This document shows, in pieces, positions 6,296 through 17,245 of a DNA stretch of 64,000 nucleotides. This stretch comes from Acidobacteriota bacterium (GTDB lineage: Bacteria; Acidobacteriota; Terriglobia; Terriglobales; SCQP01). Position numbers and translations under genes: made by a program. Each line of letters begins with the position of its first letter. Position 1 is the stretch's first letter. The stretch lies in assembly GCA_021818955.1 (NCBI GenBank), contig JAKASR010000008.1:1-64000 (forward strand), in the 5' to 3' direction. Below the pieces are notes generated by a model. The model made no database searches, was not told the DNA's origin, and saw only the letters and a program-made list of their open reading frames with translations.

Positions 6296-8080
6296 GTGAG
6301 CTCTTTTTCCCGCCGTCAATTTTTAAAGTTCGCGCCACTGGCCGCCGCCGGCTTGGCCGGTCCGGACAATGCCTGGGGCCAGCCCGGCTGGGGACGCACC
6401 GCGGCCGGGGTATGGGCGCCGGGGGCGGCCGCGCCCGGCGGCTCCATCTTCCATGACGTCAAGCCCGCCGAAAGCCATATCACCTGGGTGCATGACAACG
6501 CCAAATCGGCGATGCACTGGCTGCCGGAAAGCATGTGCTCCGGCTGCGCATTCATCGACTACGACAACGATGGCTGGATGGATATTTTCCTGGTGAACAC
6601 CGGGCGCTGCGATTTTTTCCAGCCGAAGCATCCGCCGCACAACGCGCTGTACAAAAACAACCGCGACGGCACCTTTACCGACGTCACCGCGAAAGCCGGG
6701 CTGCAGGGCGGCGAGACCTGGGGCGAAGGCGCGGCGGTGGGCGATTACGACGGCGACGGGTATCCCGACCTCTACGTCACCGGCTACGGCCGCAACCTGC
6801 TGTATCACAACAACGGCGACGGCACTTTTACCGACGTGACCGACAAGGCGGGGGTGGGCGATTCGGGCTGGTCCACCTCGGCCGCCTGGTTCGATTACGA
6901 TCACGACGGCAAGCTGGACCTGTTTGTCTGCAGCTTCGTCGTCTATAACGACCAGTTGAAGATCAGCTGCGGCGACAACAAGATGGGCAAGCGCTATTAC
7001 TGCATTCCGCGCCTGTTCGAGCCGCGACCCAGCAAGCTGTATCACAACAATGGCGACGGCACTTTCACCGAGGTGGGGCACCTGACCGCCATCGGGCGCA
7101 ATCCGGGCAAGTCGCACGGCGTGGTGGCCAGCGATATCAACAACGACGGCCGGCTGGATTTGTTCGTTTCCAACGACACCACCGCCAACTTTCTCTTCAT
7201 CAACAAGGGCAAGGACGCCCACGGGCAGGCGCAGTGGGAAGAAGCGGGCTTCATGGCGGGGGTGGCCTACAGCGAGGAAGGGACGCCGCGCTCCGGCATG
7301 GGGCTGGACGCGGGCGACTACGACAACGACGGCTGGATGGACCTTTACGTCGCCAACATCGACCACGAGCGTTTCTCGCTCTACCACAACAACCACGACG
7401 AGACGTTCACCGACATGGCGGCGCAGAGCGGGATTGGCATGGCCAGCTACCTGCGCAGCGGCTGGGGCGTGCGCTTTTTCGATTACGACAACGACGGCGA
7501 ACTGGACCTGCTGCAGGCTTGCGCGCATCCGGACGACATGGTGCAAAACTACGACGAGGGCGTGCACTGGTACGAGAAGCCAATGCTGTTTCATGGCAAC
7601 GGCCAGGGGAAATTCAACTTTCTCGGGGGCGCCGCCGGCAGCGCCTTCCGCCGGCGCTGGAGCGCGCGCGGCATGGCAATTGGCGATTACGACAACGACG
7701 GCGGAGTGGACGCGCTGATCAGCAACAACGGCGCGCGCCCGCTGCTGCTGCACAACCAGGTGGGACGCCGCAAAAACTGGCTGGGCGTCTTTCTGGTAGG
7801 CAAAAAATGCCATCGCGACGCGGTGGGCGCGAAAGTGACCTGGAAATTCGGCGAGCGCACGCGCAGCCGGGAAAAGAGCGCCGGCGGCAGCTATCTTTCC
7901 TCGCACGATCCGCGGCTGGTGCTGGGCGCCGACCGGACGCCGCAGATCGACTGGGTGGAAGTCCGCTGGCCGCAGCCTTCGGGCGCGGTGGAGCGCATTG
8001 CCAAGCCGCCGATGAACCGCTACGTCACGATTGTCGAAGGCGAGGGAATCAGGCCGTATCCGTTTAAAGGGAAAGTGTAG
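6296..8080 (+). CDS. Tat-exported FG-GAP/VCBS repeat protein with UnbV-ASPIC C-terminus (CRTAC1-like)
   Basis: I choose the GTG at 6296 because it places a twin-arginine signal, FSRRQFLKFAPLAAAGLAG, at the N-terminus; an upstream in-frame TTG at 6215 would add 27 unlikely residues. About 594 aa follow, with repeated calcium-binding blades such as DYDNDGWMDIFLVN, DYDGDGYPDLYVT and DINNDGRLDLFVSN, each followed by LYHNNGDGTFTDV-like strands. The C-terminus (KNWLGVFLVGKK to WVEVRWPQPSG) matches the ASPIC/UnbV domain. Such proteins are secreted seven-blade propellers of unclear role that are common in Acidobacteriota, Planctomycetes and Verrucomicrobia. The repeat field begins directly after the stop. 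Confidence 0.85.
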   Translation: MSSFSRRQFLKFAPLAAAGLAGPDNAWGQPGWGRTAAGVWAPGAAAPGGSIFHDVKPAESHITWVHDNAKSAMHWLPESMCSGCAFIDYDNDGWMDIFLVNTGRCDFFQPKHPPHNALYKNNRDGTFTDVTAKAGLQGGETWGEGAAVGDYDGDGYPDLYVTGYGRNLLYHNNGDGTFTDVTDKAGVGDSGWSTSAAWFDYDHDGKLDLFVCSFVVYNDQLKISCGDNKMGKRYYCIPRLFEPRPSKLYHNNGDGTFTEVGHLTAIGRNPGKSHGVVASDINNDGRLDLFVSNDTTANFLFINKGKDAHGQAQWEEAGFMAGVAYSEEGTPRSGMGLDAGDYDNDGWMDLYVANIDHERFSLYHNNHDETFTDMAAQSGIGMASYLRSGWGVRFFDYDNDGELDLLQACAHPDDMVQNYDEGVHWYEKPMLFHGNGQGKFNFLGGAAGSAFRRRWSARGMAIGDYDNDGGVDALISNNGARPLLLHNQVGRRKNWLGVFLVGKKCHRDAVGAKVTWKFGERTRSREKSAGGSYLSSHDPRLVLGADRTPQIDWVEVRWPQPSGAVERIAKPPMNRYVTIVEGEGIRPYPFKGKV

Positions 8081-8700
8081 GAAGCGCAGAGCGCAAAGCG
8101 CAGAGCGCAAAGCGCAGGGCGCAAAGCGCAGGGCGCAGAGCACAGAGCACAGAGCACAGAGCACAAAGCGCAAAGCACAGAGCACAGAGCACAGAGCGCA
8201 GAGCGCAGAGCACAAAGCACAAAGCACAAAGCGCAAAGCGCAAAGAGCAGAGCGCAGAGCGCAGGGCCAGAATTAGTCTGGGCGCAGCCCGCAAGCGGGC
8301 TGCTTTCCACGGAAGGAAAAGCACAGAGCGCAGAGCGCAGAGCACAAAGCACAAAGCGCAAAGCGCAGAGCGCAGAGCGCAGGGCCAGAATTAGTCTGGG
8401 CGCAGCCCGCAAGCGGGCTGCTTTCCACGGAAGGAAAAGCACAGAGCGCAGAGCGCAGGGCGCAGAGCACAGAGCACAGAGCACAAAGCGCAAAGCACAA
8501 AGAGCAGAGCGCAGGGCGCAGAGCACAGAGCACAGAGCACAAAGCGCAAAGCACAAAGAGCAGAGCGCAGGGCACAGAGCGCAGGGCGCAGGGCGCAGAG
8601 CGCAGGGCCAGAATTAGTCTGGGCGCAGCCCGCAAGCGGGCTGCTTTCCACGGAAGGAAAAGCGCAGCAATGCAGATGCTTTTCACGGAAGGAAAAGAGC
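8081..8700. repeat. heptanucleotide minisatellite with three embedded hairpin cassettes
   Basis: The region is built of head-to-tail 7-mers of form GCRCARR (GCGCAGA, GCGCAAA, GCACAGA, GCACAAA, GCGCAGG). It is interrupted by three near-identical cassettes of about 59 bp at about 8264-8322, 8392-8440 onward, and 8604-8662. Each cassette contains the hairpin GCAGCCCGC-AA-GCGGGCTGC followed by TTTCCACGGAAGGAAAAGC, and a partial fourth tail lies at about 8675-8696. Because 7 is not a multiple of 3, long frames are open on both strands and give low-complexity Ala-Leu-Cys repeats; I treat those as non-coding. Confidence 0.9.
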
Positions 8701-8725
8701 AGCAATAAGGATTTGCGCTGACAAC

Positions 8726-8806
8726 GGGCGGCACGGCCGCTTTTACTTTTAGGCGCTGACGCTTTCGCAAAGGTCCGGCCGAAACCGGACGCATGGCGAA
8801 TACTCA
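8726..8806 (+). repeat. 81-bp structured direct repeat, copy 1
   Basis: This element matches 10037-10117 at 73 of 81 positions with no gaps. It begins with a GCGGC-ACG-GCCGC hairpin followed by TTTTACTTTT, like an intrinsic terminator. It then carries GTCCGG-CCGAAA-CCGGAC inside an outer TTCGC/GCGAA pairing and ends in GAATACTCA. It lies 27 bp upstream of the sugar-isomerase-like gene, so it could be a 5' leader element, a terminator pair or a dispersed repeat. Confidence 0.75.
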
Positions 8807-10246: not shown

Positions 10247-10516
10247 ATGAAAAGATCAATAAAATTAACCAAAGTTGGAGAAGCGGCGATACGCATTCGC
10301 ATTAAACGTCTTAAAGCCGGACGATATTTGGGAACAAGTCCGGACGTGCCCGGACTAGTAGCCGAGGGCAGAAATGTATCCGAAACCATCGCTATCGCGC
10401 AGGATTTAGCCCGAAAAATTGTGGAATCCTGCCTGGAGCACGGCGATCCGCTGCCCGCAGTATTTCGAAAACACCAATATAAAAATGAATATTTGATACC
10501 GGTTTCGATTGCTTAA
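10247..10516 (+). CDS. hicB: HicB-like antitoxin
   Basis: The 89-aa product fits the short HicB/DUF1902-type partial RNase-H fold: AIRIRIKRLKAGRYLGTSPDVPGLVAEGRNVSE-like spacing followed by an amphipathic helix (TIAIAQDLARKIVESCLEHGD). Such proteins neutralise HicA mRNA interferases. The gene precedes a damaged hicA by 9 bp in the same orientation, so the order is antitoxin-toxin. No DNA-binding domain is evident at the C-terminus. An orphan antitoxin may protect against incoming HicA toxins, but that is speculation. Confidence 0.75.
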   Translation: MKRSIKLTKVGEAAIRIRIKRLKAGRYLGTSPDVPGLVAEGRNVSETIAIAQDLARKIVESCLEHGDPLPAVFRKHQYKNEYLIPVSIA

Positions 10517-10525
10517 CTCCTTGAT

Positions 10526-10754
10526 ATGGGGCGCTTAGCGGGATTTCGTTATCAAAGAAGTTATAAGACGCATGCGCCAATTCGGGTAACGCTTCGATCG
10601 ATCCGCAGCAGGCAGCCATGAAATCTGGAGGCATACAACAACAGGACGGAAGATTACACTTCCCCATCATGCTCACGACATGGCCGAAGGAACATTACGC
10701 GCAATATTGCGTGAAGCCGGCATTAAGGTTGAAGATTTCCTAAAGCCGCTATAA
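10526..10754 (+). pseudogene. hicA: hicA toxin remnant (frameshift plus nonsense)
   Basis: From ATG at 10526 the frame reads MGRLAGFRYQ and then goes wrong. Removing one A from the A-run near 10553-10556 restores EVIRRMRQFG. A TAA follows, after which the same frame continues as RFDRSAAGSHEIWRHTTTG, then RKITLPHHAHDMAEGTLRAI and LREAGIKVEDFLKPL. This is a HicA double-stranded-RNA-binding-like toxin with its catalytic His in SHEIWRH. Two lesions are needed to rebuild it, so it is a pseudogene; the stop is TAA, which rules out selenocysteine. Confidence 0.8.
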
Positions 10755-10771
10755 ACGTTCCCTTCCACAAC

Positions 10772-11350
10772 TCATTTCGCCGCGCGGTGCTTCAGGTTGA
10801 GGCAGAAAGTGACGGCGTTGTTGGGGTTGAGGGCGGTGTCGCTGATCTCGACGTGGCGGATGATGCCGCGCTTGTCGATGACGAAGCTGGTGCGGCGCGC
10901 CAGGGCATACTTCACGCCCTTGATGTTGGCTTGCTTGATGAGCACGCCGTAACGGCGCTCGATGGCGCCCTGAGGGTCGCTCAACAGCGGGAAGGTGACG
11001 CCGATCTGCTTGGCGAAGGCGGCGTTGGCCGCGGGCGAATCCATGCTCATGCCCAGCACCACCGTATCGGACGCGGCCAATTTGCGGCTATCAGACTGAT
11101 AGCCCTGGAGCTCGTGCTTTCAACCCGAGGTGAAGGCGAGCACGTAGATGGCCAGGATGACGTTTTTTTTGCCACGAAACTGGCGCAGGGAAACCGGCTG
11201 GAAATGATCGTCGAGCAGGGTAAAGCCGGGCGCTTTTTGACCCGGCTTGAGCTGGGTATGGGCGATAGGCGGCACGGCGGGACGGAGCGCCAGCAGCGCC
11301 GGCGCCGACAGGCCCAACAGCACCGCCAGAACAGCGAAACGAGCACGCAT
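10772..11350 (-). CDS. selenocysteine-containing peroxiredoxin (AhpC/TSA-BCP type), exported
   Basis: The reading frame runs 193 codons from ATG at 11350 to the stop at 10772, interrupted only by TGA at 11120-11122 (codon 77). Around it the translation is LAFTSG-[TGA]-KHELQGYQSD, matching the peroxiredoxin active site in which FTxxC holds the peroxidatic cysteine. Downstream family features are all in frame: LGMSMDSP, FPLLSDPQGAIERRYGV, the conserved Arg in LARRTSFVIDKRG, and HVEISD. The N-terminus (MRARFAVLAVLLGLSAPALLA) is a signal peptide, so the enzyme should act outside the cytoplasm. A SECIS-like hairpin follows the TGA, and a tRNA-Sec gene lies at 17149. The cytochrome c gene 34 bp upstream on the same strand is probably in the same operon. 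A nonsense mutation is the alternative, but no other lesion is present. Confidence 0.88.
11086..11104 (-). promoter_or_regulatory. bacterial SECIS-like hairpin after the in-frame TGA
   Basis: On the minus strand the sequence is GGCTATC-AGTCT-GATAGCC: a perfect 7-bp stem, or 8 bp if the loop closes to GTC. The loop starts 23 nt after the TGA. Known bacterial SECIS elements place a small apical loop containing GU about 16-37 nt after the UGA, where it recruits SelB. The position and the GU in the loop agree. Confidence 0.7.
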
Positions 11351-11384
11351 GGCCTAGCCTCCTTGAAGAACGAAAGGGTCGTGA

Positions 11385-11720
11385 TTATTTTTTGGCGAAG
11401 CCGCGCACCACGCAATGCACCAGGGCATCGATCATCCGGGGGCTCAACTGGCCCTGCCAGGCGGGCATGCGCCCCTTGCCCTGCTTGCCGTGAGTGACGG
11501 CGGCGATCAATTCCGCATCGTTATGCTGCGCCTGCCATTTGCGGTCGGTGAAGTCGGGGGTGTGAATGGCGGGATAACCGGCGCCGTTGACGCCATGACA
11601 CATGGCGCAGGTTTCCATGTACTGCCGGTGCGCGGCGGCGCAACCGGGTTTGGCGGCGAACAGCATGCCGGCCAGGGACATCAAGGTGAAAAGGGTGAGG
11701 GGAAAGCGTAGGCGGAGCAT
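11385..11720 (-). CDS. small monoheme c-type cytochrome
   Basis: The 111-aa protein has a signal peptide (about 1-28, ending near CAAA) and one heme site, CAMCH in YMETCAMCHGVNGAGYPAIH. A probable Met ligand lies in GKGRMPAWQGQL, the usual class I cytochrome c (cytochrome_CBB3-type) layout. It should be a periplasmic electron carrier. It ends 34 bp before the selenocysteine peroxiredoxin start on the same strand, suggesting co-transcription and possibly a peroxide-related electron route. Confidence 0.85.
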   Translation of the reverse strand: MLRLRFPLTLFTLMSLAGMLFAAKPGCAAAHRQYMETCAMCHGVNGAGYPAIHTPDFTDRKWQAQHNDAELIAAVTHGKQGKGRMPAWQGQLSPRMIDALVHCVVRGFAKK

Positions 11721-17148: not shown

Positions 17149-17245
17149 GGAGGCGCTTGTGGCCCGGTGGCTGTCACGGTCTTCAAAACCGCTGGGGCCC
17201 CGCTCCGCGGGGTTCGATCGGTTCGACTCCGATGCGCCTCCGCCA
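17149..17245 (+). tRNA. selC: tRNA-Sec (anticodon TCA)
   Basis: The 97-nt gene has an 8-bp acceptor stem GGAGGCGC/GCGCCTCC, discriminator G and encoded CCA. The anticodon loop is CTTCAAA, with anticodon TCA reading UGA. A D-arm with CCGGTG in the loop, a long extra arm (CCCCGC-TC-CGCGGGG) and a T-arm ATCGG-TTCGACT-CCGAT complete it. An 8-bp acceptor plus 5-bp T stem and a long variable arm are diagnostic of bacterial tRNA-Sec. It implies that SelA, SelB and SelD are encoded elsewhere in the genome. Confidence 0.96.

Follow-up and report, generated by a model that had tools for sequence, protein, structure and literature searches.

A probable selenocysteine peroxiredoxin of Acidobacteriota with a predicted signal peptide and a conserved cysteine in the last helix

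The 64,000-nucleotide stretch of DNA analysed here (the window) carries a peroxiredoxin gene with one in-frame TGA, and we are highly confident from sequence comparison that it encodes a Sec peroxiredoxin, with selenocysteine (Sec) at the peroxidatic site. The frame consists of 191 sense codons and the TGA, which is its sole internal stop, and selenocysteine insertion appears to be by far the best explanation of that codon. The sequence-only reading had the position of the gene right (10772–11350); its strand needs correcting to minus. The features concerned are:

10772–11350, minus strand: candidate gene for a Sec peroxiredoxin of 192 residues, Sec included (AhpC-TSA match, homologue alignment)
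11358–11364, minus strand: Shine-Dalgarno AAGGAGG, ahead of the ATG (sequence)
11350–11348, minus strand: start codon ATG (sequence)
11285–11350, minus strand: predicted signal peptide, residues 1 to ~22 (sequence, clade N-termini)
11120–11122, minus strand: in-frame TGA, read as Sec77, at the peroxidatic position of FTSG-U (homologue column counts)
11086–11104, minus strand: SECIS-like hairpin GGCUAUCA-GUC-UGAUAGCC (fold z-score, covariation in relatives)
10892–10894, minus strand: Arg153, invariant in alignment A2 (R in 80/80 Sec rows)
10802–10804, minus strand: Cys183, the sole other Cys of the window protein (alignment; last helix in the model)
10774–10772, minus strand: terminator TGA (sequence)
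11385–11720, minus strand: upstream cytochrome c gene (Cytochrome_CBB3), ending 34 bases before the peroxiredoxin start
17149–17245, plus strand: tRNA-Sec, anticodon TCA (ARAGORN; Rfam RF01852, 65.7 bits)

The motif around the in-frame TGA, FTSG-U-KHEL, puts it on the Cys of FTxxC, and this placement, proposed from the sequence, was borne out by both the domain match and the homologous column. The read-through protein matches AhpC-TSA across the TGA (9.8e-32, 110 bits versus a cut-off of 26), and Redoxin is also matched across it. As had been expected, gene calling breaks the frame at this codon: the table-11 ORF list of the window has no ORF spanning the TGA, and the downstream part is listed alone, with a TTG start and 102 aa (10772–11080). 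Selenoprotein genes are routinely miscalled, and the window gene would be split or labelled a pseudogene.

Homologues came from 396 genomes within the phylum, a scan of ~85,000 species genomes and further regions taken. Across 94 homologous places, the TGA column holds TGA in 81, TGC in 10 and TGT in 3, and no other codon; the count of Cys or TGA that the sequence-only reading had suggested as a check thus gave both (Cys codons at 13/94) and nothing else. The same reading had named random stops and lesions in relatives as evidence against it, and the core of the Sec homologues proved clean, with a second lesion only in L068, one truncated copy from a MAG. In comparison with L042, dN/dS is ~0.08 before the TGA and ~0.25 after it, the latter value indicating that the part after the TGA is selected as protein; purifying selection acts on both sides. 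The 81 Sec genes end in TAG (37), TAA (29) or TGA (15, the window gene among them), showing that TGA has not simply been reassigned and still works as a stop. The use of TAG as a Sec codon in G376 was considered and rejected, as the column there is TGC (L070) and the TAG sits elsewhere.

The SECIS-like hairpin of the window gene lies 16–34 nt after the TGA (−11.4 kcal/mol), and the 25-nt piece that contains it is unusually stable (fold z = −3.71). Stability is unremarkable for longer folds of this region, of 51–52 nt (z = −0.66 and −1.05), and the case for a SECIS therefore rests on covariation and on absence from the Cys relatives. A hairpin is present at the same place after the TGA in 61 of 81 Sec genes and in 0 of 13 Cys genes, with 20/81 Sec genes showing no fit to the common hairpin. 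Its tip, CAG(G/U)(C/A/U)UG, is nearly invariant among the relatives and is CAGUCUG in the window gene. Standard pairs occupy 92.7% of the hairpin pair cells (26 distinct sequences), and pairing falls to 24–52% when the partner is slid by 1–3 columns. Furthermore, 26 double-change pair cells were observed, compared to 7.9 in shuffles and 0–5 when the partner was slid. The gene's own UGA terminator is without the conserved hairpin context. Given the CAGUCUG-tip hairpin just behind it, the UGA at codon 77 would be read by SelB and Sec-tRNA. In the same-clade Sec genes L032, L035, L036, L023, L024, L082 and L083, the RNA after the TGA adopts a fold other than the common hairpin; these genes possibly carry another SECIS form.

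The tRNA-Sec gene in the window had been the ground for proposing Sec insertion, with a search for selA, selB and selD as the follow-up and their absence as the point that would speak against it. All three are present in the host genome (3.8 Mb, 96% complete), selA at 3.7e-157, selB above its cut-off and selD at 2.0e-110, which supports the proposal. In the phylum sample, selA was found in 56 of 60 genomes with a Sec peroxiredoxin versus 197 of 336 without one (p = 2e-8, kinship ignored), and the four Sec-peroxiredoxin genomes lacking selA are drafts of 72–91% completeness. The selD gene of this genome (L009, C12:164365–165282) has an in-frame TGA of its own, in KAAG-U-AGKLSP, and SelD is itself a probable selenoprotein.

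These data bear on two other accounts of the TGA. One is a pseudogene or sequencing error, with the TGA arising from a Cys codon by plain nonsense mutation. A single base change turns TGC or TGT into TGA, and standard gene calling would split the frame here; we nevertheless give this account practically no credence, since the TGA is kept in 81 of the 94 places, in many genera of the phylum and without other core lesions, and both of its flanks are under purifying selection. Conservation of TGA at one single column already refutes it, and the homologue counts as a whole (81 TGA, 13 Cys, 0 other, no other core lesion bar L068) exclude chance or decay. Decoding of UGA as Cys, Trp or Gly, through an altered genetic code or a suppressor tRNA, would be consistent with the alternation of TGA with Cys codons in the relatives, and UGA recoding as Cys by unusual tRNAs is a known phenomenon. 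This is also very improbable, as selA, selB, selD and a tRNA-Sec with a TCA anticodon are all encoded in the genome, TGA terminates 15 of the 81 Sec genes, including the window's, and the SECIS-like hairpin covaries.

In a tree of 107 rows, the window protein belongs to an 85-member clade (84 Sec, one Cys; SH-aLRT 96) that extends into Myxococcota and stands apart from the cytosolic AhpE-like and BCP-like forms; both of these groups of cytosolic forms include independent Sec members. The signal peptide claimed from the sequence holds as a prediction: the window protein has a signal-like N-terminus, as do 72 of the 75 Acidobacteriota members of the clade by a simple hydrophobicity rule, and we infer from the sequence that the protein is exported. 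Export would be of interest in that the enzyme would work in the envelope while requiring both a supply of selenium and a trans-membrane thiol relay. Sec is retained in 84/85 members though Cys is one base change away, so that the reason for keeping it is directly testable, and the only Cys form of the clade, L118, provides a natural control for comparing the two residues. L118 is from a Myxococcota genome, has a lipoprotein-like N-terminus and keeps the C-terminal Cys. Independent Sec forms, cytosolic BCP-like and AhpE-like, were seen in Acidobacteriota and Myxococcota (L078, L079, L126 and L071, L075, L076).

The active site of the window protein comprises T74, U77 and R153. The residue three before U is T in 78/80 and S in 2/80 Sec rows, and Arg153 is taken here to be the active-site Arg of peroxiredoxins. 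At the Cys183 column, Cys occurs in 75 of 80 Sec rows and in none of the 13 Cys rows (the Cys relatives first collected). All 85 clade members, the Cys form L118 included, have a Cys 97–108 residues after the peroxidatic position, and the spacing from Sec77 to Cys183 is 106 residues. An AlphaFold2 model with Sec77 modelled as Cys (pLDDT 89) places Sec77 near the start of helix 75–86 and Cys183 inside the last helix, 176–191; among the solved structures listed as matches, Bcp1 and AhpE come closest in fold (Z ~25). This conservation and the modelled position in a helix suggest, with reasonable likelihood, that Cys183 is the resolving residue. After export, Sec77, presumably flanked by Thr74 and Arg153 in peroxide attack as in other peroxiredoxins, would attack and reduce the peroxide and become a selenenic acid, which Cys183 would most likely resolve to a Sec–Cys selenenylsulfide. 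An envelope thiol relay could then reduce the selenenylsulfide, for example one fed by the single DsbD/CcdA-type protein found in the genome.

The 1-Cys enzyme AhpE is among the closest folds, which would fit a one-Cys cycle, with Sec77 acting alone as Cys does in AhpE, Cys183 structural and an outside thiol reducing the selenenic acid directly. We consider such a cycle possible but rather unlikely, because the window protein has no further Cys besides Cys183, whose counterpart is found in 85/85 clade members including L118, with no Cys at this column in the 13 Cys relatives first collected. The source of electrons may also be asked of the cytochrome c gene, which is likely co-transcribed with the peroxiredoxin gene. 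The cytochrome link put forward by the sequence-only reading stands for the window, L042 and L043 and fails for the rest of the family; we therefore rejected it as a family trait, and it is of little help in understanding the family as a whole. Donation of electrons from the adjoining cytochrome c to the peroxiredoxin is thus improbable despite the 34-base spacing and the two conserved pairs, as nearly all other clade members are without such an adjoining gene. Resolution by Cys183 remains the favoured cycle, and it would probably differ from the cycles of AhpE and PrxQ.

We then compared the window protein with known peroxiredoxins. Peroxiredoxins with Sec in a TxxU motif are well established, e.g. 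PrxU of Eubacterium acidaminophilum, within COG1225/PF00578 (PMC1794560, PMC9312934, PMC13188914). The window protein resembles them in having Sec at the peroxidatic position of a T/SxxU motif and an AhpC/TSA fold, and at the sequence level it has the domain, the TGA with T and Arg, a candidate SECIS and the Sec machinery. In contrast to them, it adds a predicted signal peptide and the conserved last-helix Cys, and it scores 47.1 bits with NCBIfam PrxU (NF040737), far below the cut-off of 270, and 40.2 bits with Prx-SUH (NF045827), below the cut-off of 298. Zhang 2006 gives three selenoprotein families for Acidobacteria and three Sec peroxiredoxins for Anaeromyxobacter; the passages covered contain no description of an exported, last-helix-Cys architecture. 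The portion of the literature covered yielded nothing specific on an exported or Acidobacteriota Sec peroxiredoxin, and no description of the subfamily with a last-helix Cys. The apparently exported, last-helix-Cys subfamily would be a variant of the known Sec peroxiredoxins, some members of which are probably already in earlier catalogues as plain 'peroxiredoxin'. Whether it forms an undescribed envelope class, reaching from Acidobacteriota into Myxococcota, almost always with Sec and using an intramolecular selenenylsulfide between Sec and the Cys of the last helix, is in our judgement evenly balanced.

AhpE of Mycobacterium tuberculosis (Rv2238c) is the closest solved sequence (1.8e-23) and shares the AFT motif; unlike the window protein, it uses Cys, is a 1-Cys peroxiredoxin by its entry titles and lacks any equivalent of the predicted signal peptide. 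BCP/PrxQ proteins have the same fold (Bcp1 and Bcp4 of Sulfolobus), and the NCBI model PRK09437 is the top match for the window protein, yet below its cut-off. However, the PrxQ resolving Cys lies five residues after the peroxidatic Cys, where the window protein has Gln82, and a Cys of this type occurs in only 1 of 80 Sec rows. The resolving Cys of typical 2-Cys peroxiredoxins (Prx1/AhpC), ~120 residues after the peroxidatic Cys in a C-terminal arm, is not found in the window protein. In Prx5, the second Cys is placed in the last helix, similar to Cys183. The two Cys of human PRDX5, Cys47 and Cys151, are 104 residues apart (PMC7920247), compared to 106 in the window protein. Prx5 differs in that no sequence closeness to the window protein is shown, and the likeness is likely a parallel solution. 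Prx5 is absent from the 50 structural matches listed, which does not speak against a match beyond them.

Two other regions of the window were noted. At 10247–10756 there is a HicB-like antitoxin gene (sub-cut-off Pfam match), followed by an apparent frameshifted remnant of its HicA partner. The region 8020–8800 is repetitive, and its minus-strand frames read as CALRSALCALRFVLCAL repeats.
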